Source: a virus. From it: a stretch of 31,708 nt of DNA. Of the stretch, positions 464 to 31,708 are shown one piece after another (within the stretch, counting starts at the first letter, position 1; every line of letters starts with the position of its first letter). Both the position numbers and the translations under genes were made by a program. The stretch covers positions 1 to 31,708 of the IMG/VR virus record IMGVR_UViG_3300010885_042814; one strand, given 5' to 3'. The notes under the pieces were generated by a model, which worked only from the letters and a program-made list of their open reading frames with translations, ran no database searches and had not been told where the DNA came from.

Positions 464-1420
464 ATGAGTATCAGTAACGAACAGCTTCTACGCAAGGCAA
501 CTCTTTCGAGCACCGACTTTGGCGGCTCGGGCGAGGCTCCGCTCTCCGTAGCTCAGGTAGACCAGTTCATTGAGCTGATGTCCGCTGAGCAGGTAATGCT
601 GAACGACGTTCGTACCGTCACCTCTACTTCTTCGAAGTGGCAGGAGTCTATCGTTGACTTCTCCTCCCGTATTGCTCGTGCCGGCACCGAGGGCTCGCGT
701 CTTGGATCTGGCGACCAGGTTAAGCCAAGCACCGGCATCGTCGAGATCAGCACCGTTCTTCTCCGCGGCGAGGTTCCCGTCACTGACGAAGTGATGGAGG
801 ACAACGTAGCACGCGACAACTTTGCTGATTCGCTCGAGCGGACGATTGCTTCGCGCTTCGGCTACGACATTGAGGACCTCATGGTCAATGGCGACACCGC
901 GTCCGGCGACTCTTACCTCGCTCAGTTTAACGGCTGGCTCAAGTTGGCTCAGGGCGCGGGCGGAAACGTCACCGCTGCCTCGTCTTACGGCCAAGACTAC
1001 CAAGAAATCTTCAAGCAGCTTCTCGTTTCTCTGCCTGACCGCCACAAGCGGAACCTGGCTCAGACTGGCCGCTTCTACGTACCGAAGCGTCTCGAGGAGA
1101 AGTACCGTGACATCCTCTCGACCCGCGGTACTCCGCTTGGCGACGTCACGCTGGAGGGCAACAACGCTCTAAAGTACCAGGGCATCGAGATCCGCGGAGT
1201 CCCAAGCTTCGCAATCGCTTCTGGCTCGCCGGACACGGGCAACGTACTTCTTGCTCACAGCGACAACCTTTACGCAGGATTCCGGCGCTCAATGACAATG
1301 GAGACTTATCGCGATCCTCGTGAGGGCGCAACTTCCTTCGTCATCACCGCCAGGGTCGATGCCAAGATCGCCGTCGTTGGCGCAACGGCAGTCGCCACCA
1401 GCGTGTCGGTCGAGCCCTAA
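464..1420 (+). CDS. Major capsid protein, HK97 fold
   Basis: This 318-residue protein has the features of a HK97-type major head protein: an N-terminal arm, a segment rich in short beta strands with an E-loop-like stretch (about 65-110), the 'GYDIEDLMVNGD' type P-domain helix near residues 140-150 that is common in these proteins, and a C-terminal A-domain-like beta region ending in alternating V/A/T. It should build the icosahedral shell. It starts at the first ATG after the scaffold-like gene, one base past that stop codon, and is followed by a small head protein. No cleaved N-terminal scaffold is present in this chain, in keeping with a separate scaffold gene upstream. The family call rests on pattern recognition and position. 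Confidence 0.85.
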   Translation: MSISNEQLLRKATLSSTDFGGSGEAPLSVAQVDQFIELMSAEQVMLNDVRTVTSTSSKWQESIVDFSSRIARAGTEGSRLGSGDQVKPSTGIVEISTVLLRGEVPVTDEVMEDNVARDNFADSLERTIASRFGYDIEDLMVNGDTASGDSYLAQFNGWLKLAQGAGGNVTAASSYGQDYQEIFKQLLVSLPDRHKRNLAQTGRFYVPKRLEEKYRDILSTRGTPLGDVTLEGNNALKYQGIEIRGVPSFAIASGSPDTGNVLLAHSDNLYAGFRRSMTMETYRDPREGATSFVITARVDAKIAVVGATAVATSVSVEP

Positions 1421-13426: not shown

Positions 13427-13660
13427 CTAGTCACCCATCAGCTTCTCTAGCTCACGCTCAACTCGAGCGCGACGAATAACCTCGTCCTTTGTGCCAAACG
13501 GACGGGTGGCCAAGTCGTGGCGACGCTCCGCGTAGAGCTCGTCAAGGCGGGCAGTCATCCTTGACACAAGGACTGGGTCGCGCTGCTCCACGTCCTTCAG
13601 CCACTCACGCTGGCGACGGGCAGCAGCAGACTGAATCTTGCTGAGGGTAGAGCGACTCAC
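13427..13660 (-). CDS. Small basic helical protein of unknown function
   Basis: A 77-residue protein, almost wholly helical, with many Arg, Glu and Leu residues (IQSAAARRQREWLKDVEQ). It starts with GTG in a four-base GTGA overlap with the gene before it, so it is translationally coupled. It is the last gene of the portal operon. I recognise no family; location suggests a head-assembly accessory. Confidence 0.55.
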   Translation of the reverse strand: MSRSTLSKIQSAAARRQREWLKDVEQRDPVLVSRMTARLDELYAERRHDLATRPFGTKDEVIRRARVERELEKLMGD

Positions 13661-13908
13661 TCTGTGACAAGCTTTGCTCGTGAGTAAACTCCACCGCCAG
13701 CATTAAGCTCTGCAGCGAAGGCTGGAAGATACTTGTCTGGCTGGGTGCGCGGGTACCAGCTGCCATCGTCGCCAGGGACTGTGTCGCGCAAGCGAACAGC
13801 AGCGTCAGCAATCCCAGTCCCAGTGACGATGCCATCAACATCCATCGCAATGCCAGCCAGTTCGTACTCGCCAGTCTCTGTGTTCAAGTTGTAAAGCTCT
13901 ACTTTCAT
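13657..13908 (-). CDS. Small protein of the portal operon, unknown function
   Basis: An 83-residue protein with alternating short strands and turns: an N-terminal MKVELYNLNTETGEYEL strand pair, then GIVTGTGIADAAVRLRDTVPG and a tail with YLPAFAAEL. GGAGGA inside the last codons of the kinase-like gene, seven bases before ATG 13908, is a good ribosome binding site. It is coupled to the following gene by GTGA. No family is recognised. Confidence 0.6.
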   Translation of the reverse strand: MKVELYNLNTETGEYELAGIAMDVDGIVTGTGIADAAVRLRDTVPGDDGSWYPRTQPDKYLPAFAAELNAGGGVYSRAKLVTE

Positions 13909-13911
13909 GCG

Positions 13912-16593
13912 TTATCCTCCAAGCATTGAGTCGACGAGTTCGCTAAGAGCAACGACTCCATACGCGTACCCATCGCGGACGTTGTGTTCTCCAGCAACAA
14001 TACTCGGTCCTGGATGCACTCCGTCTTTCAGCAGCAACTCGATCCGACGAAACATGTTTGTCGCAGCAGCACTTGAGAGTCCAGCAGCTTTGAACATCTT
14101 TAAGAGCTCTGACTTGCGGTCTTTCAAGTCTTGAAGTATCTCCATGTGCTCGGGTCTGATCGTGCGGCCCTTTGCCATTGACATGAACGTGTCGTTCACC
14201 CACTCAAACTCATTCTCTGACAAGCACAGCCCATTGTCTATGACGTGCATCTTGCCATCATCATTGAACCAGAAGTTATTTGTGTGACGGTCAGTTTGAC
14301 CCGTCACAGCATCAAAGAGCGCAGCCAGCTCAATGTCTTCCTCGGTGGTTTCGCTGCCGTCGCCTGCGACGTTGGCGACTTCGCCCTTGAGCATGTTCTG
14401 AACGGATACTCTCTCGAGGTCAGCTGGATCGCTCACAGGAGCATCCGCAGCTCGCCTCTCCATCGAGATCATGTCTCGCTCTTCAGGTGTTAGAGCTCGT
14501 ACCCCGACTGATGGCGCTGGCACGCCCATCATCTCAGCAATCTGCCCCGCCATCCATTCACGTGAGTGATCTTGGCCTTCTGGAATCCCGTACTTCTGTG
14601 CCTGCCCTTGGCCGCCCTCGCCAGCAGTCTTAACGATGACCTTTGTTCCATCTTCGAGTTCGCCCTTCATCGCGTAAGAGATTCCTTCGCCTATGAGAAC
14701 AGTCACGTCCTTGATCGGCGACTGAGCAATAGGCATGTCTTCGCCCGCCATTGTTGCGCCTGCTGGTATCGCTCGCCCGGGGAAGAACTCGTCTGGCCCA
14801 GGCATGATAAGCTTTCGCGCTTCATCATAATCGCTCTGAAGCTTAGCAGCTTCTGCTGTCAAGCCACGGTTCTTGAGGGCGTTAATGATTGCTTCCACAG
14901 GATCGTCACCACTTCCCACTAGGACAAGATTCCTGTCGCCAGGGTCGTAGCCGCCACGGCGAAGAACTTCTGGGTCTCTGTTTGGAAGTCCAGCAGCAAT
15001 CACTCTATCTTGCACGCCGTTGTAAGCGTCACGAGCTTTTCTGAGCGCGTCCACAGCCTCAAAGTTAATCTCCGGATCGTCTGCTGCACTAAGTTCTTTA
15101 AGCTTCTTTATGTTGTCGTCAGACACGACTCCATCGTTATGCTCTCGTATAACGTTGTGAACTCTACTGATCTCAGCGAGAAGTGTCTGAAGTTCTTCGT
15201 CGGTCAAAGATCGTGGACCTTCGTACATAGTGTTCGTTAGGTAGCCGTGCTGCCACACGTCGAGCTCACTGAAGTCTTCAAGCGCATCAGCGAGAGCAGT
15301 GTGGCCAAAGTCTGTGTCAGTTCCTACGTGCATGTCAGCGATTGCTCGCATGTCGTCGAGATTCATCTTAAGGTCGGTAAGAGCGTCTTGAGCATAGTTA
15401 GCGTGTACGCCAGCGTAGTCCCAGAGCTCGTCACCTTCTAAGCCCTTCGCGCGACCACGCTGAATAGCTTTATCGTACTCATCAAGCTTCTTGCTCATGT
15501 CAGCAAGTCTACGCATAAAGTCACGCTCATCCTTGAATCCGCGACGCACATCCCGCAACACCTTCCTAGCTGGACTAATCTTATCTTCGCTCACTAAGTC
15601 TACCTTAGTCGGGAGGAGAGCTGCGATTGCACCACGGTACGCACGGCCAGCGTCAGCAATGTCAACAGCTATCGCTTCACGTTCTGGCTTGTCAGCATCG
15701 AAGAGAATCTGTTCTGCCTCAGCGGCAACGTTCTCTATCCGCTCAGCTCTCTCACGCTCAGCAAAGTCTTTCCTCGCAGCTTCGTTCGCTTCTCTTTCTT
15801 TCTCCTCCTCGCGAATGCGTGCCTGCTCAGCGAGCTTAGCGCGACGCTCTTCAATCTTTTCTTTAGCGTTTGGATCGACTCGTCTGAACTTCCCAAACTC
15901 CCAAAGCACTGCTGCATTCTTACGTCGCTTTGCTCTGACTTTTACCTGGCCTGCGTAGCGAACTGCTCCTGACTCTGAGTCGCGTACCCATACATCAAGC
16001 ATGAACTCTTTGCTTCGCTTCGGGTTCTGGCCAAGAGCAGGTGCCCACGCAAACACTTCTTCGTTCTGGAGCCCGCTACTGCGACCTTCGCCAATGGCAT
16101 CCGCAATCTGATTACGACGCGTCCTGACGAGACGCTTCATTGGCTCGGGATCCACAGTGTCACCAAAGCGGCCTTGAATCTTAATGTCGCCAAAGCCACG
16201 GAACTCAACTCCCGGAGGAATGATGGAGGGAATGGTCTCGTCGGGCTCGCGGACGGGAACACCGCGACCTGCGCGAGCCCCTGGCTCAATGGCAGCGACG
16301 TCCGTTCCGGCACGTCGCCGGTTCATAGCTTCTCTACCTTGCCGCTCTCTTTGGTTAATCCCCTCAACGACTGCCTCGAGCTCAGCGACTGCCAAGTCTG
16401 GGTCTACGATGAGGTCAGACAAGTCAGCGTTGAGAGACTCAGCGAACCGCCCAAACATGTCGCGAGGATGAAGCTTTGGATCCCATGGCACTCTTGGACG
16501 GTTAATGCCGCCAATCTTACTCACGCTTTCTTTCTGCCTCTGCTTGCGGAAGCGCTCTTGCTCGCGCTTTGCTTTGTCGGACAAGTACCCCAT
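13912..16593 (-). CDS. Head-operon protein with C-terminal PI3/4-kinase-like domain
   Basis: An 893-residue protein directly after the minor head gene. ATG 16593 is chosen because it overlaps the preceding TAA by one base (TAATG); an upstream in-frame start would run into that gene. Order: basic N-terminus; motif W37-D-P-x-x-H-P-R44 with G48-R-F50; mixed regions; a Glu/Arg/Ala-rich coiled coil (about 245-300); helical middle; kinase-like domain (about 630-880). In that domain K655 (VIVKT) fits the ATP-binding Lys, then comes an REWMAGQIAEMM helix, DRH-x-x-N at 768-773 and IDNG at 785-788, with a DDG turn between. Spacing and residues match PI3/4-kinase and related HipA-like catalytic and metal loops. 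Its substrate is unknown. Confidence 0.75.
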   Translation of the reverse strand: MGYLSDKAKREQERFRKQRQKESVSKIGGINRPRVPWDPKLHPRDMFGRFAESLNADLSDLIVDPDLAVAELEAVVEGINQRERQGREAMNRRRAGTDVAAIEPGARAGRGVPVREPDETIPSIIPPGVEFRGFGDIKIQGRFGDTVDPEPMKRLVRTRRNQIADAIGEGRSSGLQNEEVFAWAPALGQNPKRSKEFMLDVWVRDSESGAVRYAGQVKVRAKRRKNAAVLWEFGKFRRVDPNAKEKIEERRAKLAEQARIREEEKEREANEAARKDFAERERAERIENVAAEAEQILFDADKPEREAIAVDIADAGRAYRGAIAALLPTKVDLVSEDKISPARKVLRDVRRGFKDERDFMRRLADMSKKLDEYDKAIQRGRAKGLEGDELWDYAGVHANYAQDALTDLKMNLDDMRAIADMHVGTDTDFGHTALADALEDFSELDVWQHGYLTNTMYEGPRSLTDEELQTLLAEISRVHNVIREHNDGVVSDDNIKKLKELSAADDPEINFEAVDALRKARDAYNGVQDRVIAAGLPNRDPEVLRRGGYDPGDRNLVLVGSGDDPVEAIINALKNRGLTAEAAKLQSDYDEARKLIMPGPDEFFPGRAIPAGATMAGEDMPIAQSPIKDVTVLIGEGISYAMKGELEDGTKVIVKTAGEGGQGQAQKYGIPEGQDHSREWMAGQIAEMMGVPAPSVGVRALTPEERDMISMERRAADAPVSDPADLERVSVQNMLKGEVANVAGDGSETTEEDIELAALFDAVTGQTDRHTNNFWFNDDGKMHVIDNGLCLSENEFEWVNDTFMSMAKGRTIRPEHMEILQDLKDRKSELLKMFKAAGLSSAAATNMFRRIELLLKDGVHPGPSIVAGEHNVRDGYAYGVVALSELVDSMLGG

Positions 16594-17522
16594 TAAACAG
16601 ATTCTACATCGCGGAGTGGAAGTGGTGGGTCTTGGCCGTGCCATGTCTCAGCAGGCGGAAGCCAGTCTGCGTCGTACACTGGGACAAGAGTGCACCGGCA
16701 GTTTGGATGCTTGGGAGGCAGCTCAACATCTGTGACGACCCATGGATTCTGCGCAGCGATCTCGACGCAGTCGTCGCAGGGCGGGTAAGACTTGGGAGGC
16801 CCGATGCTTGGACCTGACGCGATGACCCAGTCAACTTGAGTGACTCCGTTCAAGTAGAGAGCATTAAAGTTCGTTGTCTCCCAGACAGCAGCAGTCTCGG
16901 TTCTGGCGATGCGTTCTGCTTGCCATCTGCGAAGCACGCTCCACTCGCGCTCAATCTCCGCAACAATCTCACCCATTGCTTTTGGCTTTGCTGGGTCAGT
17001 TGCTCGAATGATGATGTCACGGAGTCTGTCCAAGTGTTCGTTCGCAGCGAGCGCAAGAACCTTTGACCCGCGCACAGCGTGAATGTCGCGGGCCATGTCT
17101 CGAGGCGTCGTCCAGCGGAAAGTCTGGTTGAGTCCGAGCGTGTCCAGAGTGTGCTGTCCCGACTCTTCGCTGACTTCGCGAGCGAGACCAAGGTAAACAG
17201 CAACTCCTCCGCCAGCAAGCGCTCTGATGCCTCCAAAGATGCGCCTGAGCAAGCGGTCAAGTCTACTCGGGTCTGGGTCTCCACTGCGAGCTTTGCCTAC
17301 TTTGCTCCACATGTCTTGCGCAAGCTCTATCGCAGGCACAAGGTCAACCTCGTTGCTTGGCTTGAGCCACTGCTCGAACGAATGTGATGTTCTCTCTATC
17401 CACCGCTCACGAGCACGCCATCCAGCGCGCAGCATCGCAGCATCGTTCCTTGTGTTGACCTTCAGCAAGTCAAGCGCAAGGTACGCCTCACTGAGATCAG
17501 CGAGGTCTTTACTCCGCGCCAC
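16593..17522 (-). CDS. Minor head protein, SPP1 gp7 / Mu gpF-like
   Basis: A 309-residue protein from GTG 17522; AGGAG lies ten bases upstream. An in-frame TTG at 17591 exists, but it would add a very basic stretch that is only the portal gene read in another frame. The C-terminal part holds the family signature: a R-x-E-T-A helix (IARTETAAVWETTNFNALYLNG), CDDC, and HPNCRC (about 272-277) followed by a strand. This domain is found in proteins that sit inside the head at the portal. It overlaps the portal gene by 14 bases. The Cys/His set could bind a metal. Confidence 0.85.
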   Translation of the reverse strand: MARSKDLADLSEAYLALDLLKVNTRNDAAMLRAGWRARERWIERTSHSFEQWLKPSNEVDLVPAIELAQDMWSKVGKARSGDPDPSRLDRLLRRIFGGIRALAGGGVAVYLGLAREVSEESGQHTLDTLGLNQTFRWTTPRDMARDIHAVRGSKVLALAANEHLDRLRDIIIRATDPAKPKAMGEIVAEIEREWSVLRRWQAERIARTETAAVWETTNFNALYLNGVTQVDWVIASGPSIGPPKSYPPCDDCVEIAAQNPWVVTDVELPPKHPNCRCTLVPVYDADWLPPAETWHGQDPPLPLRDVESV

Positions 17523-18993
17523 TTGTGGGTGGCTCCTGTGGCGGCTCTTGCGGCGGCGGCGTTTCCTCAGGGACGTTGCGTCGTTGTTCAAGGATTGCGC
17601 GGATACGACTTGCCACCTCTTGCCTCATCGGGTCTGTTGGGTCGCCTTCGCTAACGCCTGGTGGGGTGATGCTCGGGAGAACACCGCCCTGGAGCTCAAA
17701 GTAGAACTTGTTGCCTCGTGGATCTTCATTTGGGAGAGGCACAGCGCCAACGCGCTGACGAGCTTCGTTGAGCATGAGGACGTTGCCCGTGAACGACCGA
17801 ACGGCCAAGTCAAGATCCTGCCCCTCCTCTGTGAGGTCAAGTTCCTCAGGATGCCACGTCCATTCTACGTCACGGCCGAACGGAGACTCAGTCTCAATGA
17901 ACGTGTTCATGCGCGCAGACATCAGCGCTTGGCTTGTCGAAATGACCGCTTCTTTGTAGATGAGTGAAGCATCCTTAGCAACGTCGCCGCCGAGAGCTCC
18001 AACCTTCACCATGCCAAGACGCTCAGACGGGATGCGGTGCGCCACTAAGATGGCTGCGTCTCCTCGAGCTTGTAGTCGCTCAAAGCTCATGTCGCCCTTC
18101 AAGTCGGAGAGCTGCTTAAACTCAATCTTGCCGTTGCCGGCGATAGGAATGACAATGTTGCGGTGAGGCTCCTTCAAGTCAGTCTTGAACGCTTGATGAA
18201 GTGCTTCTTCCATCTCCGGATCATCCTCCAAGTTTGAGAGGATCACAGCCCACCGTGGCTCACGCCGGTTCTCAAAGTACATGATGTTGTCGTCGCGTGC
18301 TGCGAGCGATAGAGAGATCCACCCAATGGCTGAGACGTATGTTGGGATTCCATACCACGACGACCGACGTGATGGCCTCTTGAGCACAATGATCTCGTTC
18401 GCAACTTCGTTAGTGATCTCGTCAGCGCTATCTTTCACAGCACCAGTGGTGCGGTCAACAACACGAGTGTCGCCAGGGAGCCATCGCTTAAACCACACGC
18501 GGCGACCGTGGCGGATCTGGCAGATGCGTACGCCATCACGGTGGAAGCGCGTCGTGTGCGCGGGTATGTGATACCAATGACGAACGATGCCTTGTGCGTC
18601 GCGTGCGAGCTCGATCGCGCCCCACCCGACCGTCTCAACATCGCCCCAAGTCGAAAGCAAGAGTTCGTGGGTAGTCATCTCGTCGTCAGACGATAGGTCT
18701 GCGAGCCAAGCATCAAGACCTTTGCGCTGGTCAACATCTGCGTCTTCAACTCGAGGGCGGTACTCCCACCCAGTGCCAACGACGTCGTTTGTCTTCTGCT
18801 CTATCGCAGCAGCGTGAATGGGGTGTGACTCAGCAATGAACACAAGTTGCTCCACCTGGAACGGGGGCGCTTGGATTCCGTGCGAGTACTTGAATGGGTC
18901 AACGGGAAGCTGCTGGCTCCACTCACCAATCTTGTCACCCGACTTAGTGAAGGTCATAACCTTCATCATCTTGCCGCTTTTGTCTTCTGCCAT
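17509..18993 (-). CDS. Portal protein, PBSX-type
   Basis: A 494-residue protein forming the twelve-fold ring through which DNA enters the head. Typical portal features are a N-terminal YSHGIQAPPFQVEQLVFIAESHPIHAAAI region, the stem and wing parts with 'SAIGWISLSLAARDDNIMYFENRREPRWAVIL', and the 'RGDAAILVAHRIPSERLG' segment, characteristic of the PBSX family. The tail is Pro-rich. It is the first gene of its own transcription unit, follows a terminator, and the ATG is seven bases after a TACAAT box without ribosome binding site. Opposite strand to the capsid gene is unusual. Confidence 0.9.
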   Translation of the reverse strand: MAEDKSGKMMKVMTFTKSGDKIGEWSQQLPVDPFKYSHGIQAPPFQVEQLVFIAESHPIHAAAIEQKTNDVVGTGWEYRPRVEDADVDQRKGLDAWLADLSSDDEMTTHELLLSTWGDVETVGWGAIELARDAQGIVRHWYHIPAHTTRFHRDGVRICQIRHGRRVWFKRWLPGDTRVVDRTTGAVKDSADEITNEVANEIIVLKRPSRRSSWYGIPTYVSAIGWISLSLAARDDNIMYFENRREPRWAVILSNLEDDPEMEEALHQAFKTDLKEPHRNIVIPIAGNGKIEFKQLSDLKGDMSFERLQARGDAAILVAHRIPSERLGMVKVGALGGDVAKDASLIYKEAVISTSQALMSARMNTFIETESPFGRDVEWTWHPEELDLTEEGQDLDLAVRSFTGNVLMLNEARQRVGAVPLPNEDPRGNKFYFELQGGVLPSITPPGVSEGDPTDPMRQEVASRIRAILEQRRNVPEETPPPQEPPQEPPTSGAE

Positions 18994-21735: not shown

Positions 21736-22386
21736 TCACTCTGAGAATCGGTAAGCGATGTACCTCAGCCGCTCGTTATTGCAGTGGTGCTCGCCGTTCT
21801 GGTCGAGCAGTAGCAAACCGTCTTTGCTTAGCGACAGTAGCTGTCCTAATAGAGATGTTGGGGGGCCATCTAAGACGACTTGAGCGAGGACTCCTGTTTC
21901 CCTACCAGTTGCGAATCTCGCCACGCGACGCACGCGCCTGACGCGGTCTGCAGTAGTCATATGAACGCCTGCCTTGCTGAACTCAGTTGCGTGGACAGAC
22001 GCAGCCTTAGCACTGTGGAATCGCTCAAGCATGCCAATGAAGGTCGTGACAAACTCAATGCCGTGCGCTGGGAAGACTGACGAGACAACGTGATGCGTGA
22101 CTTCGTGAAGTAGAATCTCCATGCGAACTTCGCCGCTCTGTCGAATCACACACTTGTCTCGCATGTAAGCCAGCCGCCCACTGTCACCGGGGAACTCTTC
22201 CACCAAGAGAGACTGGACGCGGTAGGCATCGCACACGCGAGCAACGATGGTGTTGGCTTCGGCTGCAGCAACAGCAACGCGCGGCAACTTGCTCCACGCA
22301 GCTTCCTCAGCAGCAATCACACGAGCACGCTGGAAGTCTGTGACTGCCGGCGGCTCGTGTGGAAGGTCAGCTGGCCGCGTGATCAT
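21736..22386 (-). CDS. Zinc metallopeptidase-like protein, TIGR04338-like
   Basis: A 216-residue protein with the zinc motif H94-E95-V-T-H98 and a further H108 in AHG, in LLHEVTHHVVSSVFPAHGIEF. This H-E-x-x-H plus later HG pattern resembles the actinobacterial TIGR04338 metallohydrolase type. No signal peptide is seen, so it should be cytoplasmic or virion-associated. It is the last gene of a four-gene operon that starts with the amidoligase and overlaps the cyclotransferase stop by four bases. Composition is nearer 53% GC on the line sampled, between its neighbours. Substrate unknown; it could release or mature a conjugate made by the operon. Confidence 0.7.
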   Translation of the reverse strand: MITRPADLPHEPPAVTDFQRARVIAAEEAAWSKLPRVAVAAAEANTIVARVCDAYRVQSLLVEEFPGDSGRLAYMRDKCVIRQSGEVRMEILLHEVTHHVVSSVFPAHGIEFVTTFIGMLERFHSAKAASVHATEFSKAGVHMTTADRVRRVRRVARFATGRETGVLAQVVLDGPPTSLLGQLLSLSKDGLLLLDQNGEHHCNNERLRYIAYRFSE

Positions 22387-23000
22387 CCTTCGACAGCTTC
22401 AAGCTCAAAGAGCTTGCGTGTTGCGATGCTCATGCCGTGGAAGAAGTCATCTTCGCTTGTGTCGTAGAAGTCATCGTCCGCAACATCGCCCCACTCGAAG
22501 CCATCGTACTGCGGCGCTGGCTTTAGCCTCTTAGGTCCGTCGGACACAAACTCCGTGATGCCGATTGCTCGCAACTCGCGGTACACGTCCTTCACAGCGA
22601 AGGTCAGCACCTTGTGGGGGAGGACGAAGTCGCTGTACCCACGACGGATGGTTGCGAGGTAGGAGCTGCTCGGCGGAGTAATCCCGTCCTGCTTAACCAT
22701 CACATAGGTGATTGCCTTCATCGTTCCGACAGCGGTTTCGACTTCAACCTCGCGGCGATCGTAGAGGTGTGGCGCTCCTTCGTAGCGGTCCAGCGACTTC
22801 ATGTCTTCGTCGGTGCACCACCACAGTCCGCCCCACACGTCTTGGCCGCTGGCCTGCTCGATGTCAGCGACACCGCGGAAGGTCAGTTGCCAGTCGCGCA
22901 AGAGTGCGGTCCGCCAGCGCTCAGCTGTTGGGCACCGTGCTGCCATCGCGCGCGTGTCCAAGTTGGAACCGTATGCGAAGTAGAGAGTTCTGCCTTTCAT
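22383..23000 (-). CDS. Gamma-glutamylcyclotransferase / AIG2-like protein
   Basis: A 205-residue protein. The N-terminal LYFAYGSNLD (YGSN at 10-13) is the classic phosphate- or substrate-binding loop of the GGCT/AIG2 family, and E74 in LDRYEG is the expected catalytic Glu. These enzymes remove gamma-glutamyl groups by forming pyroglutamate. It is encoded two genes after an amidoligase and is coupled on both sides by ATGA overlaps. An amidoligase with a cyclotransferase is a pairing described for phages and bacteria, where one makes and the other breaks a glutamyl bond. The C-terminal third (after about residue 130) is acidic and less typical. Confidence 0.8.
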   Translation of the reverse strand: MKGRTLYFAYGSNLDTRAMAARCPTAERWRTALLRDWQLTFRGVADIEQASGQDVWGGLWWCTDEDMKSLDRYEGAPHLYDRREVEVETAVGTMKAITYVMVKQDGITPPSSSYLATIRRGYSDFVLPHKVLTFAVKDVYRELRAIGITEFVSDGPKRLKPAPQYDGFEWGDVADDDFYDTSEDDFFHGMSIATRKLFELEAVEG

Positions 23001-23266
23001 CGTAGGTCCTCCAGTTCCTTGTCGTCTCGTATGATCTTGAGCATACCCGCCGCTTCTAGGCCGTGGATGAACTCCTTGGCTGAGATCGCCGGGTCAATCT
23101 GTATGTCTCCCGCGGACCAGATGTAAGCCCGCTTGACCAGCACCTCACGAAGCTCGTCATCTGACAGATCGCTGTTCCACGGCATATCGGAGATACCGTT
23201 GAGCAGCGCTTGCCACGTAGGCGCTGTCTGGTGGTGGCCGTCTGGCCAGATTACCTGGACTGTCAT
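22997..23266 (-). CDS. Small protein of the amidoligase operon
   Basis: An 89-residue protein with an N-terminal strand (MTVQVIWPDGHHQTAPTW), then an acidic middle (DLSDDELREVLVKRAYIWSAGD) and a helix with SAKEFIHGLEAAGMLKI. It lies between the amidoligase and the cyclotransferase with four-base ATGA overlaps at both ends, and GAGGTGG precedes its ATG. No family is recognised. A small acidic partner between the two enzymes might be a substrate or regulator of conjugation; this is inference from position only. Confidence 0.65.
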   Translation of the reverse strand: MTVQVIWPDGHHQTAPTWQALLNGISDMPWNSDLSDDELREVLVKRAYIWSAGDIQIDPAISAKEFIHGLEAAGMLKIIRDDKELEDLR

Positions 23267-24429
23267 GCGACCACCTCACCAGCGCGACGGGCGCGGGAGC
23301 GGAACCCGGTTGCTCGGTTCTGAAGGTAGGTCCGCTCCGGCGACCGGCTGAAGCCGATTGCGTCGAAGAGCTTGGCGACACTGTCCTGCTGGCCGATGCC
23401 CTCGCGCTGCTGGCCTACCGCGTCAGCCATGCTCATCAGCATCTTGACCCAAGCGCCGACCTTCTTGAACTCGACGCTGCCGCCGTGCTGCCGGAACTCA
23501 ACCGTGCCGAGTCGTGGGAAGGCGCTCACGTTCACGGTCTTGTACTTGTCGAAGCCGCTCAAGTTGCGGACCCGGTCAAGACGGTGAAGCTCGTCCTCCC
23601 GCCACTCACGGCACCATCTGCCATTGCGCCTGCTTGGCGAGACGAGCCAGTTGATGAGCTTCTGATTACTCACGTAAGCGCGGACGAGCTTGCGGATCCC
23701 CGCGGCCTTCGCGTCACGCATCTCCAAGTGAATGTGGATGCCGCAAGAGCGGTCAGCCTTGCCACCCGCAGACTTCAGGGCGGCGCACGCAGTCTCCAGC
23801 TGCCGCATTCCGTCCTCACCCTTGAGGATGGGCGACACCAGCTCGAGGCCGTATGTCTCGCCTGTGCGAGTGTTGCGAACCGACTGGTCGTACTTGATGG
23901 CCCACTGCCCGGATGACGCAGAGGCAGGGGCCCAGCCGCGACCGCGGCGAACCTCAAGACCTGCTGCCTCAAGGGCGTCGTACACCTTTGCGCGTGTGGT
24001 GCCATTGAACTCAAGCTCAACGCCGAAGCGTCGCTCAAGCCCAAGCGCTGCGAACAGTCCGCCTGCGCGGCGGGGATTGCGTCCAGCGCGACGTCCGGTG
24101 GCGTTGGCTGCTGCGTGATGCAGCAGCGGCAGCGCGTTCTCTGGTTGGACTGGGTACGCGCCGCCACGCAGGTTGCGTGGGTACGCGCCGTGGACCCGCA
24201 TGCGGAACCGAGCATCGTCGCTCAGATCCTCGCCGGCGGACCACATCGCTTCAATGTTTTCGTCGGGGTAGTCGCTCATGTCCGCCTTCAAGTCGAAGCG
24301 GACGAAGCCGGATCCTGGGACTGCCCAAGCGAACACAATGCCGCGTTCGTTGAGCAGACGAGCGTAGTTGCGCGACGGAGCGACCCGGTACTCAAAGCCA
24401 AGGTCTGCGATCTGGTCCTCGTACTTCAT
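23263..24429 (-). CDS. Amidoligase-like (COOH-NH2 ligase) enzyme
   Basis: A 388-residue protein. The ligase domain (about 131-345) shows RFGVELEF (135-141), YGLELVSPIL (194-202), CGIHIHL (229-235) and TVEFRQHGGS (309-318), the metal and ATP-binding pattern of the glutamine-synthetase-like amidoligase family (Pfam Amidoligase_2). It should form an amide bond between a carboxylate and an amine. Residues 1-130 form an extra domain I do not recognise, containing an SRNYARLLNERG strand. The gene has a good promoter and the AAAGGAG site, heads a four-gene operon, and is GC-rich (70% on the line at 23881). Target of conjugation unknown. Confidence 0.85.
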   Translation of the reverse strand: MKYEDQIADLGFEYRVAPSRNYARLLNERGIVFAWAVPGSGFVRFDLKADMSDYPDENIEAMWSAGEDLSDDARFRMRVHGAYPRNLRGGAYPVQPENALPLLHHAAANATGRRAGRNPRRAGGLFAALGLERRFGVELEFNGTTRAKVYDALEAAGLEVRRGRGWAPASASSGQWAIKYDQSVRNTRTGETYGLELVSPILKGEDGMRQLETACAALKSAGGKADRSCGIHIHLEMRDAKAAGIRKLVRAYVSNQKLINWLVSPSRRNGRWCREWREDELHRLDRVRNLSGFDKYKTVNVSAFPRLGTVEFRQHGGSVEFKKVGAWVKMLMSMADAVGQQREGIGQQDSVAKLFDAIGFSRSPERTYLQNRATGFRSRARRAGEVVA

Positions 24430-27554: not shown

Positions 27555-30500
27555 TCAGGAGCGGTGCTTGCGGAGCAGGCCAGCGACGATGCTTGGCGAT
27601 GATGACTTGGTCACAGACTTCTTGATCTGAAAGATGCCTCGCATCTCGCTGATCGACATCGTCAAGAGTGTGTCCTTGCTGAAGCCACGCGCCAAGAGAA
27701 CGTCTTCAAGCTCCATACGAGTCATCCTACTCACTGGCTTCACAATGCCGCTCTTCTCATCAGAAGTTAGTGGTCCTGCGAGGCCACCGCTTGGGAGCAT
27801 CGTTGGTACTCCTTCGCGAGTCTCAAGCTCTTTGATTCTGTCGTTGATGCGCTTCAGTTCGCTGACGAGTGCTTCACTCACAGGGTGGTTCATGTCTTGA
27901 CCCTTCGCCTCAGCGCGAGCAAGCTGTTTCTCACGTAGCGCTTTCAGTGCGCCAAGCTCTTGTCTCTCTGCGTTTCGCTTTGCTTGCAGCTCTTCGTTCT
28001 GCGCCATCACCTCAGGTGCCATTTCTTGGCGTCTTGCGAGCGCCTCACGGGCGCGCTGCGCTGCTTCGTCTCCGCCGCCAGACCGTACATCTTGCAGAGC
28101 TGACTCAAGATCTTCGTCTGCCCGACGGAACCTCGAGTTCAAGTCTGATTCTTGCGAAGACGAACTTCCCATTCCAGCCTCAATCTCAGCAGCCAGGTCT
28201 TCTTCGTCTGGACTTGGACGGTCAGCTTGCTCTGCGGCGGAAGGAACTGCGATGCCAAGAGCTGAGTTGAGAAGCCGGTTGAGCTCCTCAGGGTCATCGC
28301 CCATCAGTGCTTCTTCAATCTGCTTGGCGAGACTGGGATCGTTATCTGGCAAGTTCTCGAGGATGTTGCGCTCGCGAGGGGTGAGCTCGATCGGTGCGTC
28401 AGCAACCATCATCTGGAAGTTCTTAATCCACTGCGGGATCTCGCGTTGCTCAAGAGCGGCGATTGCTTCTTCGTGCATCTCGCCCGTGTGCGAAGGATCG
28501 TTCAAGTACTCCTCAGCAATACGACTGCGCTCCATCTCCCACTCATCGTCGCTGCGAATCTCACCGCGCCTCATCTTCTCGTCAAGCTCGTTCACGCCGC
28601 GGTTGTAGAGCTCAAGATTCAGCTTCAACTCGTCAATCATGTTGCTCCGGCTCTCACCTTCTTGAAGGCGAACCTCAAGCATGTTTGCGAAGTCGTCGCC
28701 GACGTTGCCCCAAGTCTGCTTAAGACCGCTGAGGTCGTTGCTCGCAGACTCACGGTGCGAGAGTTCCCAGCCAAGGCTCCACGCGTCGTCAGTCATCTGC
28801 CGCACCCGAGCTGGGTCTGGCTTGCCTGGGCCGCCCTGCGCTTTCAAGTCGCCATAGTCAGCGATTGCGTTCTGGATGGAGTTGCGGTCAACGTCCGTAA
28901 GTTGCACTGTCTCGCCGCCCTTCCCATCGAGCTTGGCAGCGAGGCTGTTGTAGAAAGCCAACCTGCGCCCAACCATTGAGTCTTCTGGCGCGTTGCGAAC
29001 AATCTGCCACCCGTCCATCAAGTCTTTCTGCTGCTCGCCCATCACCAGCAGAGCTGCTCTTATGGTGTCGATCTCCTGGTCAGTGAACACAGCAGGAGTG
29101 GTTTCTTCAGGAGTGTCAAGCTGCGGCTCCCATTCACCGGTCACAACCTTGTCAAGCGCCCAGAACTCGAAAGAGTCGCCACTCTTCTGACCTTCCGCTC
29201 TGAACTCATCTTGAATCTCGTCGAAGTCTCCATACCTGCCAAGCCGCACGTCAGACATCACCTCGTTGGCGAGAGTCGAGAGGTCTCGGTTCGAGAGTCC
29301 AGCAAGGGCGTCACGGCCAATGTTCTCCGGGCGGTTCGCAAAGTTGTCTGTTCCGTTCGGCGGAAGATCTTCCATAGCTTTCACAGCGCCAGCAAGCTCG
29401 ACCTTGTCGTCTGCAGAGAGATTTGTGTCGAAGGTAAGTGACCCAACAAGAGTCTTTGCGTGCGCGATGACGGAGCGGCGCTGGCTGCGGTCGCTCAAGT
29501 CGGGCAGTCCGCGAAGCGCGGACGAAGCATTCTTCAGCTCGTCTGCGATGTCACCGTCGAATCGCTCTGCTGCAGAGTCAAGTGCGCGGCCAATGAGCGA
29601 GAGGCGCATTCCAACTCCGGGGCCAAAGGCGTCAAGGAGAGAGTTCTCCCACATCTGGCGCCACTGCCCACCAAGACCGCCGATTGCTCCAGACGGCCAG
29701 CGAAGCTGTCGTGGGTCGAATGACTTCCGCAGCGACTTCTTGACCTTGAACATCGCTCGCATCTCAGACACAGTCATTCCGCGAACGGTCTCCGGAAGAA
29801 CGCCGCGCCGCAAGAGAACGTCGCGCAACTCTGCTTGGGTCATCTTGCCGACTGGCTTCTTCATCATGTCGCGCTCATCAGACGTAAGTGGTCCTTCGCC
29901 GTCGTTGCTAAGCGCCTTTGCTGCCTCTTCAACCTTCGCGGTAAGTACGCCGTGCTGTTCCCATGTTAGCCCGAAGAGCATCTCGTCGCGTAGATCTTTC
30001 TGCGCTTGACGAGTAAGGTCTCCGTCTTCAGCGATTCGCTCTTCCTCTCTGTCGTAATCCAAGCCTTGGCCGATCATGTCCTGGGCGATAGACGCAAAGA
30101 GTTCGTCTGCGTTCCTGCCCACTGAGCCATCGTAGTTCCCGCCGTTCAGTGTGTTGTCCTGCCAACCTTTGCGCGGCCCGCCTTGCTCGTCTTGTGCGTC
30201 TGGAATGTATTCCTTGAATGCATCCCACTCCTTACGTGTGAGCTTAAGACCGCCGGGGCCCTCGTACTTCTTCCACTTGACGCCCGTTGTCTCGGGTGCG
30301 GATGGCTCAGGTGTGGATGGTGCGGGTGCGGACGGTGCGTTGCCGCCGTCGCCGCCGTCGCCGCCACTGCGAAGGCCGCCATCGTTCTCGCGAGCTTCAA
30401 CGTTCCGTCGCACGTCTACCTCAAGCTTATCGAGAATATCAGCGAACTGCTCCTCAGTAAGTCCGTTAAAGAACGTATCTCTGAGATCTTCATCCTCTGC

Positions 30501-31499
30501 TTTTGTCGGTGGCCTGTCTTGTACTCTCTCGATGTTGGCAAGCTCGTTGTGGTACTCGTCTATCTGACCACCCATTGGCCCTACGACTTCTTCAAGTTGA
30601 TCGGAGGTGATGGATTCTTGCCAGTTCGCTATGTCCTCAACACCGGCGTCGTCCAAGAATATACCAACGGCTGCTTCTTCTTTCGCGTCGAACTTCACAA
30701 GCTCAGGTGTTAGAACTTCGTTGGAAGCGCCACCGCCGCCGAAGTACTGAGCGGTGCGGTTGTCAAGGATGTCGCGGATCTCCTTGTCTGCCTCAGCGTG
30801 CGAGGCATTCTTCATGTTGTCCATCATTGCGTTAAGATCGTCTGCCATGTCGGCGAGTCCCTGCGAAATCATGCGGTAAGAGAGCTCGTCTTCGTCGTCA
30901 TCTTGCTCCATTGCTCGTGCAGACACTTCAGCCATTCGCTCCGCTTCAGCTTCAACTGCACGCGATAGCGAAGCAACCTCAAAAGACGACAAGTCTTCTT
31001 CGTTCTTAATCTTTTCCTTGAGTGCATCAAGCCGCTTCGCTCCAGCAAGGTGTTCCCTTGCTGTTTCGTCCACAGCTTCCCACTCGCCTGAGCCTTCTTC
31101 CTCAAACCTAAGCTGCGCACGAGCTGTGGCTGCGAGGTCTCTCTCATTCCTCGCCATGTTCTGCAGCGAAAGAAGTACGCGGTCCTCTTGCTCGCTTATG
31201 ATGCTTTTGACGCTCGGACCAGAAGCTCCTGACGACTTAGCGTCAAGATCGTTCCACTCCACGTCGTTGATGTCACCACGGACAGCGTCTGCGAACGAAG
31301 CTTGGTTGCTGTCGTTCTTGTTCAGTGTGCGAAACACGTCAAGAAGAATCTGTGCTGCGCTATCGGGCATCCCGTCTGGACGGAACTGACCACCAATCTC
31401 GATGGTGCCCTTTGGCCAGCGTGGGTGGTCAGTAGGGTTCCACGTTGCTTTCACAACGTTTGCTTGCGCTGACTTCACGAGAGACTCAAAGTACCTCAT
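27555..31499 (-). CDS. Large two-module protein with W-N-P-x-x-H-P-R motif, probably virion-associated
   Basis: A 1314-residue protein; ATG 31499 is chosen because AGAAGG lies shortly upstream and the start overlaps the previous stop (TGATG). Module 1: W20-N-P-x-x-H-P-R27-W-P with GGQF at 36-39, acidic helical part, Pro/Ala/Glu-rich linker (about 395-415), and a 58-residue repeat at 536-593. Module 2 starts with F594-D-P and RWPSG...GGQW, continues as acidic helices and ends with a second copy of the repeat at 1242-1299, 32 of 58 residues identical. There is no membrane segment, signal peptide or enzyme motif. Glu, Asp and Arg are plentiful. Its motif is also in the kinase-like head protein, so a head or internal virion role is possible. 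Function unknown. Confidence 0.7.
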   Translation of the reverse strand: MRYFESLVKSAQANVVKATWNPTDHPRWPKGTIEIGGQFRPDGMPDSAAQILLDVFRTLNKNDSNQASFADAVRGDINDVEWNDLDAKSSGASGPSVKSIISEQEDRVLLSLQNMARNERDLAATARAQLRFEEEGSGEWEAVDETAREHLAGAKRLDALKEKIKNEEDLSSFEVASLSRAVEAEAERMAEVSARAMEQDDDEDELSYRMISQGLADMADDLNAMMDNMKNASHAEADKEIRDILDNRTAQYFGGGGASNEVLTPELVKFDAKEEAAVGIFLDDAGVEDIANWQESITSDQLEEVVGPMGGQIDEYHNELANIERVQDRPPTKAEDEDLRDTFFNGLTEEQFADILDKLEVDVRRNVEARENDGGLRSGGDGGDGGNAPSAPAPSTPEPSAPETTGVKWKKYEGPGGLKLTRKEWDAFKEYIPDAQDEQGGPRKGWQDNTLNGGNYDGSVGRNADELFASIAQDMIGQGLDYDREEERIAEDGDLTRQAQKDLRDEMLFGLTWEQHGVLTAKVEEAAKALSNDGEGPLTSDERDMMKKPVGKMTQAELRDVLLRRGVLPETVRGMTVSEMRAMFKVKKSLRKSFDPRQLRWPSGAIGGLGGQWRQMWENSLLDAFGPGVGMRLSLIGRALDSAAERFDGDIADELKNASSALRGLPDLSDRSQRRSVIAHAKTLVGSLTFDTNLSADDKVELAGAVKAMEDLPPNGTDNFANRPENIGRDALAGLSNRDLSTLANEVMSDVRLGRYGDFDEIQDEFRAEGQKSGDSFEFWALDKVVTGEWEPQLDTPEETTPAVFTDQEIDTIRAALLVMGEQQKDLMDGWQIVRNAPEDSMVGRRLAFYNSLAAKLDGKGGETVQLTDVDRNSIQNAIADYGDLKAQGGPGKPDPARVRQMTDDAWSLGWELSHRESASNDLSGLKQTWGNVGDDFANMLEVRLQEGESRSNMIDELKLNLELYNRGVNELDEKMRRGEIRSDDEWEMERSRIAEEYLNDPSHTGEMHEEAIAALEQREIPQWIKNFQMMVADAPIELTPRERNILENLPDNDPSLAKQIEEALMGDDPEELNRLLNSALGIAVPSAAEQADRPSPDEEDLAAEIEAGMGSSSSQESDLNSRFRRADEDLESALQDVRSGGGDEAAQRAREALARRQEMAPEVMAQNEELQAKRNAERQELGALKALREKQLARAEAKGQDMNHPVSEALVSELKRINDRIKELETREGVPTMLPSGGLAGPLTSDEKSGIVKPVSRMTRMELEDVLLARGFSKDTLLTMSISEMRGIFQIKKSVTKSSSPSIVAGLLRKHRS

Positions 31500-31708
31500 C
31501 AGACCTTCTTCTTTCCGCACCTTGAGCAGGTGCCGTCAATGATCCACGACCCGCCGCAGTGGCATCCGCCCTTCTGCTCGATACTTGTGCTGGCGAGATC
31601 GCTTGTTGTCATCGTGTCTTTGTTCATCAAGTTTCTAACAGTACCCGTTGCGACATCTTTGCGAAGCTTCGACGCAACTGACGCAGCCCACTTGCGTCCA
31701 GGGTCGCC
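31499..31708 (-). CDS. C-terminal part of a zinc-ribbon protein (N-terminus outside window)
   Basis: The minus-strand frame is open from the right edge to a TGA that overlaps the next ATG by one base. The last 69 residues are visible: a basic helical part (GRKWAASVASKLRKDVATG) and a C-terminal zinc-ribbon-like element with CHC, then CSRC (C-x-C-x9-C-x2-C) in GGCHCGGSWIIDGTCSRCGKK. It could bind metal, and through it nucleic acid or protein. The missing part prevents a family call. It is upstream of and probably co-transcribed with the 1314-residue gene. Confidence 0.65.
   Translation of the reverse strand, partial: GDPGRKWAASVASKLRKDVATGTVRNLMNKDTMTTSDLASTSIEQKGGCHCGGSWIIDGTCSRCGKKKV

Follow-up and report, generated by a model that had tools for sequence, protein, structure and literature searches.

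Background

Viral effector enzymes whose genes adjoin those of MuF and portal proteins, or that are fused to these proteins, are an established concept in the passages covered of three reports (PMC5512222, PMC5576092, PMC9503650). In this work, we describe a gene in such a position in a 31.7-kb linear virus record of IMG/VR (IMGVR_UViG_3300010885_042814, 31,708 nucleotides, analysed in full and hereafter called the window). The gene encodes an 893-residue protein that probably is an effector kinase, carried in the virus head as virion cargo, injected with the DNA and phosphorylating a target in the host. It resembles the polyvalent and MuF-delivered effectors in that all are enzymes beside or fused to MuF or portal proteins, with ADP-ribosyltransferase (ART) and GNAT neighbours; however, no kinase of the phosphatidylinositol 4-kinase (PI4K) fold stands among those effectors in the same passages.

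Other described systems come close in part. Type II PI4K and the Pfam family PF00454 have the same fold and the same order of active-site residues (K / DRHxxN / DxG), whereas the window protein scores under the Pfam threshold, has N instead of F in its metal loop and belongs to a viral head context. HipA, HipT, CtkA and Fam20C are of the same structural superfamily, but the window sequence is weakly HipA-like, below threshold, and its gene context differs from theirs. The kinase among the polyvalent proteins (Iyer 2017, in the passages covered) is without a C-terminal subdomain, whereas in our model C-lobe helices follow the metal loop, at model positions 186-241. Unlike the MuF polymorphic toxins, the window has its MuF protein as a separate gene with no C-terminal fusion; such a fusion is found in the Micromonospora phage pMLP1 and in Mycobacterium prophages. 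Finally, injected head proteins of phage T4, Alt and IP, carry a short N-terminal capsid-targeting signal. The window protein also has a short N-terminal motif, a candidate only for such a signal, but motifs of its type have another sequence, are longer, and may be internal and repeated.

The kinase domain

The coding region runs on the minus strand from an ATG at 16593, which overlaps the stop codon of the MuF gene as TAATG, to a stop at 13912; an alternative upstream ATG at 16644 would lengthen the open reading frame (ORF) to 910 residues. The features used in the argument are as follows.

13912..16593, minus strand: kinase-bearing protein, 893 residues, with an N-terminal tag-like motif, a long middle region and a C-terminal kinase domain (ORF list)
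16593..17591, minus strand: MuF-like minor head protein, directly upstream of the kinase gene (Phage_Mu_F, E 6e-4; phrog_4728 head morphogenesis, E 4e-12)
17509..18993, minus strand: portal protein, just upstream of the MuF-like gene (PF04860, 6e-12; phrog_12, 2e-24)
16444..16485, minus strand: WDPKLHPRDMFGRF, residues 37-50, candidate head-packaging tag (of a motif class common to many portal-adjacent viral proteins)
13984..14742, minus strand (modelled stretch 13915-14745): kinase domain, residues ~618-870 (profile matches; AlphaFold model; PI4KIIbeta match)
14629..14631, minus strand: K655, candidate ATP-binding lysine
14557..14559, minus strand: E679, candidate helix-C glutamate
14275..14292, minus strand: catalytic loop D768-R-H-x-x-N773
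14230..14241, minus strand: metal loop I785-D786-N-G788

Two alignments were used: A4, with 10 rows (window, viral contigs and Actinophytocola), and A5, with 16 rows. The lysine, the helix-C glutamate, DRxxN and DxG are all invariant in A4; D768, R, N773 and D786 are invariant in A5, in which K655 and E679 are conserved in at least 90% of rows. A preliminary description of the window, made from its letters, had proposed a PI3/4-kinase-like order for K655, D768-R-H-x-x-N773, a DDG turn and I785-D786-N-G788. All of these residues are located where it put them, the Lys/Asp/Asp triad recurs in the homologues, and a MuF-like gene does adjoin, as it had said of a minor head neighbour. The same description doubted activity on account of the N that replaces F, a doubt that the homologues answer: they have IDNG, IDHG, MDNG or IDKG, with D and G retained family-wide. 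Since IDNG, IDHG and IDKG are all usual for the family, N for F is no sign of inactivity, and its reading as an inactivating change was dropped.

In profile searches, the domain matches phrog_3162 (E 4e-10) and TIGR03843, the SCO1664 family (E 1e-9); the latter match, at 38.2 bits, does not reach the curated cut-off of 172.4 bits. The match to PF00454 (PI3_PI4_kinase) has E 6e-4 for the domain alone, and its scores of 18.2 bits for the full protein and 20.3 bits for the domain do not reach the gathering threshold of 27.1 bits. Several relatives are above that threshold, namely pMLP1 (29.7 bits), L025 (28.0), L074 (28.3), Myxococcus phage Mx1 (34.4) and L028 (43.9). HipA_2 (E 0.0072) and HipA_C (E 0.064) are both under the Pfam threshold for the window domain. 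The domain is PI3/4-kinase-like and, strictly, no member of PF00454 at threshold.

A sequence search of solved structures gave chance matches only. The AlphaFold model of the domain, based on the 16-row alignment, has pLDDT 80 and pTM 0.82 and supersedes a weaker first model from 10 rows (pLDDT 62); the structure prediction proposed in the preliminary description has thus been run, with a kinase-like fold as its outcome. The best solved match is PI4KIIbeta (Z 18.6, root-mean-square deviation 3.4, 228 residues), and the beta and alpha structures of type II PI4K give Z 17-18.6 over 223-235 residues, with deviations of 3.3-3.8. Further solved matches are Fam20C (Z 14.8), CtkA (14.3), actin-fragmin kinase (12.9) and HipT (12.3), together with HipA; as a group, kinases of the Fam20C/CtkA/HipA type give Z 11-15. 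According to the model, residues ~618-870 are a kinase of the PI4K-II/Fam20/HipA fold with its active-site residues intact.

Because the fold matches comprise both lipid and protein kinases, the substrate cannot be read from the fold alone. A lipid or small-molecule substrate, such as an inositol-containing metabolite, would leave the reading of delivery unaffected. It would agree with PI4K-II as the closest solved fold and with the cellular cousin SCO1664, which reportedly is always found linked to mshC, a mycothiol gene (PMC4255298). On the other hand, the protein kinases Fam20C, CtkA and HipA share the fold, and haloarchaeal and Myxococcus viruses carry the domain as well, and we regard such a substrate as unlikely.

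The domain in other viruses and prophages

Relatives in viral contigs were collected with a catalytic-loop pattern, and those in haloarchaeal viruses were reached by a fold search of viral models. The gene orders around the domain vary. In L015, MuF is followed by the kinase and then an ART; in L019, a MuF+ART protein is followed by a GNAT+kinase protein (GNAT assigned by eye). L016 and L017 have a portal-kinase fusion and then MuF (portal part assigned by eye), L021 and L022 have the portal and then the kinase, and L018 has three kinase-bearing genes clustered ahead of its MuF gene. Mycobacterium prophages encode a MuF-kinase-ART fusion directly after the portal, annotated as a minor capsid-ART fusion only. 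Among named phages, the domain is fused to minor capsid protein 2 in pMLP1 and is found in two Mycobacterium phages, in an ART-annotated protein of Onyinye and in gp195 of Phrappuccino; in Mx1, a GNAT+kinase protein adjoins a GNAT/ART/NUDIX protein. Of the haloarchaeal viruses, HHTV-1 encodes its kinase protein, gp13, two genes ahead of the Mu gpF-like gp15, and HSTV-2 encodes its own, gp16, three genes past the major capsid gene, with an N-terminal part that is HK97-gp10-like (by eye). The hosts thus span Actinomycetota, Myxococcus and haloarchaea. That phages have such a domain is no novelty in itself, because some public records of these relatives already carry the label PI3K/PI4K catalytic domain or kinase.

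Some side observations concern individual relatives. The three kinase-matching proteins of L018 (1485-2582, 5108-6961 and 7251-8453) all bear the motif treated below, and the MuF protein of the cluster has an RNA-ligase match. A long insert separates the kinase lobes in L018:5108-6961 and L093:10690-12591. In HHTV-1 gp13 (L145, 9436-12738), the kinase occurs together with the motif and with two strings that, by eye, resemble the HExxH of metallopeptidases.

The same gene orders bear on a role in assembly, in which the protein would be a minor head or vertex component whose kinase, in the producing cell, phosphorylates the capsid, the portal or the scaffold, or which merely binds nucleotide. 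The tight coupling of the gene to MuF and portal agrees with such a role, as do the fusions to the portal in L016 and to the HK97-gp10-like protein in HSTV-2 gp16. However, the annotated head clusters examined in phages with related portals are without the kinase, the same position is taken by ARTs and GNATs, and the domain also ends type-VII-linked proteins. An assembly role is therefore rather improbable in our estimate, and gene context in many unrelated viruses favours delivery in the head.

The domain outside viruses

The nearest cellular family is the actinobacterial SCO1664/TIGR03843, which has no known function. Its kinase core is the same as that of the window, and the TIGR03843 model matches every one of the 10 A4 members (best 2e-26). 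The A4 profile matched in 123 of 296 Actinomycetota genomes, mostly in one short gene each, and these short single genes fit SCO1664/TIGR03843. The difference from the window, apart from the score, is that SCO1664 copies are short and chromosomal and form their own clade in the tree (99/99), apart from the viral and type-VII copies. The window row is on a long branch (2.25), which makes its position among the phage kinases unsure; some rows are phage duplicates, and L013 is a prophage though labelled SCO1664. One weak match (G237:C82:70969-71301, E 4.5e-10) lies within a 20,955-codon open frame of an actinobacterial genome.

In two Actinophytocola genomes, the domain ends proteins of type-VII-secretion-like loci; the neighbours in L028 are WXG100-like and YbaB-like, the layout of type-VII-secreted polymorphic proteins. 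In both L027 and L028, the kinase is around 8001, at the end of type-VII-secretion-type proteins, and L027 has two copies, both within a single very large frame.

This reuse in WXG100-linked proteins raises the question of a polymorphic toxin, acting in lysogens or against competitors, with which the kinase would harm rival bacteria or superinfected cells while a small gene downstream confers immunity. MuF toxins have been described as a class (PMC5576092), and two small ORFs, of 83 and 77 residues, do follow the kinase gene. Against this, no immunity family was recognised among the small ORFs downstream, and no integrase or repressor was identified in the window, the record being a fragment. 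We consider a toxin of this kind quite unlikely, and head cargo injected into the host remains the preferred reading.

The N-terminal motif

Strings related to WDPKLHPRDMFGRF are present in most of the viral kinase proteins found, either N-terminally or between domains, and MuF, ART and GNAT proteins encoded nearby in the kinase loci have them as well. For example, the archaeal virus protein HHTV-1 gp13 carries WNPALHPRGPDGKF. The regular expressions were shaped on the kinase loci, and counts inside these loci are partly circular; the independent parts of the evidence are a blind DNA scan and an upstream-gene test.

The blind scan looked in DNA for a degenerate pattern encoding W[DN][PA]xxHPRDxxGRF and ignored gene context. 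It matched 78 viral stretches, one of which is the twin contig of the window. Every match falls within an open frame, and most are at residues 5-35; the proteins often exceed 1000 residues, and shuffled proteins gave 0.05 motifs vs 80 observed. By sequence, the proteins form 24 groups (largest n=43), and 17 representatives include four ARTs, two kinase-bearing proteins and one portal protein. L117 and L124, grouped with L136, are two further kinase-bearing motif proteins, and in L093 the kinase is in a motif-bearing gene neighbouring a blind match. The genes upstream are portal or portal-MuF in 9 of the 10 cases examined (in L134 the portal is several genes off). In the Streptomyces phage Gilgamesh, the motif opens a giant protein soon after a portal-MuF fusion gene. 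Separately, five of six consecutive large ORFs in L093 (78-12591) contain the motif, one of them in four copies.

The motif is absent from kinases fused to MuF or to the HK97-gp10-like protein and from type-VII-locus kinases, as if fusion to a head protein made it needless. Phages with the form GHPFRGNQW (L015, L019) have the same form in several neighbouring proteins, as if it were matched to a virus-specific partner. On these sequence patterns the motif is a candidate head-packaging tag. More broadly, W[DN]PxxHPRDxxGRF (long form ending in GGQF/GGRW; second form, in some phages, GHPFRGNQW) may be a portable head-targeting signal that loads diverse effectors, including a new injected class of PI4K-fold kinases, in tailed bacterial and archaeal viruses; we hold this tentatively, as a possibility somewhat short of even.

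Alternatively, the motif may be no packaging tag but a linker that joins effector domains, or a site between them at which the prohead protease cuts. Its presence at N-termini as well as between domains, in as many as four copies per protein, is consistent with this. Most blind matches are, however, at residues 5-35, where a linker is useless, and a tag that gets cleaved is still a tag. We find this alternative doubtful.

Proposed mode of action

Recurrence of the kinase domain and the motif beside portal and MuF genes is observed in unrelated viruses. Because of the position in head clusters, the swapping with ART and GNAT, the alternative fusions to head proteins and the reuse in type-VII loci, we infer a portable injected effector. 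Catalytic activity, packaging, injection, substrate and tag function are inferences too. A kinase of the PI4K-II/Fam20/HipA fold would be produced along with the head genes and carried in or on the head, next to the portal. The N-terminal HPRD..GRF motif would dock it onto the assembling head, substituting for the direct MuF or portal fusion of its relatives. The protein would then enter the host cell with the injected DNA and phosphorylate a host target early in infection, more likely a protein than a lipid.

Several points weigh against this. The kinase proteins of Mx1, Phrappuccino and Onyinye have neither the motif nor a visible MuF fusion and break the rule that fusion replaces the motif. 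The motif itself could serve as a linker, be cut by the prohead protease or take part in DNA handling. The middle region of the 893-residue protein, of ~560 residues, is unexplained. The architecture of the window itself is known from one near-identical contig pair only: whole-protein and portal searches of viral contigs gave that one contig (99.97% identity to the window across the shared stretch) and nothing more, and the 893-residue protein had no match in phage records and none was found in plasmids.

Other features of the window

464..1420, plus strand: major capsid protein, on the strand opposite to the kinase gene (PF05065, 5e-12; phrog_1623, 1e-68)
13657..13908, minus strand: 83-residue ORF, 3 bases past the kinase stop, with GGAGG ahead of its ATG; accessory, chaperone or immunity candidate
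13427-13660, minus strand: second small ORF, 77 residues, after the 83-residue ORF; accessory, chaperone or immunity candidate
27555..31520, minus strand: 1321-residue protein with two long-form tag motifs (31383-31442 and 29661-29720) and no family match

No promoter or terminator match was found near the end of the kinase gene. The 1321-residue protein has a repeated stretch (KPV..MT..EL.DVLL.RG) before its second motif and near its end. By eye, 22383-23000 (minus strand) looks like a gamma-glutamylcyclotransferase-like gene (YFAYGSNLD), and 23263-24429, close to it on the same strand, looks amidoligase-like (RFGVELEFNG).

Significance

Nothing was found in the open-access literature for GHPFRGNQ, or for a phage PI3/4 kinase together with the virion, and wider searches led only to the reports on polyvalent and MuF effectors; subscription journals were outside this scope, and novelty of the motif is unproven. 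Within the searchable open-access texts, two things appear to be new: the recurrent use of a PI4K-fold kinase as a warhead, and a short motif that is a candidate tag for loading. The known injected phage effectors are mainly ARTs, nucleases and peptidases, to which a PI4K-fold kinase in an equivalent position would add an enzyme class that is testable in isolated phages. If the motif is a loading signal, the injected proteins of a virus would be readable from sequence alone, and the choice of internal head proteins outside T4 would become directly testable.
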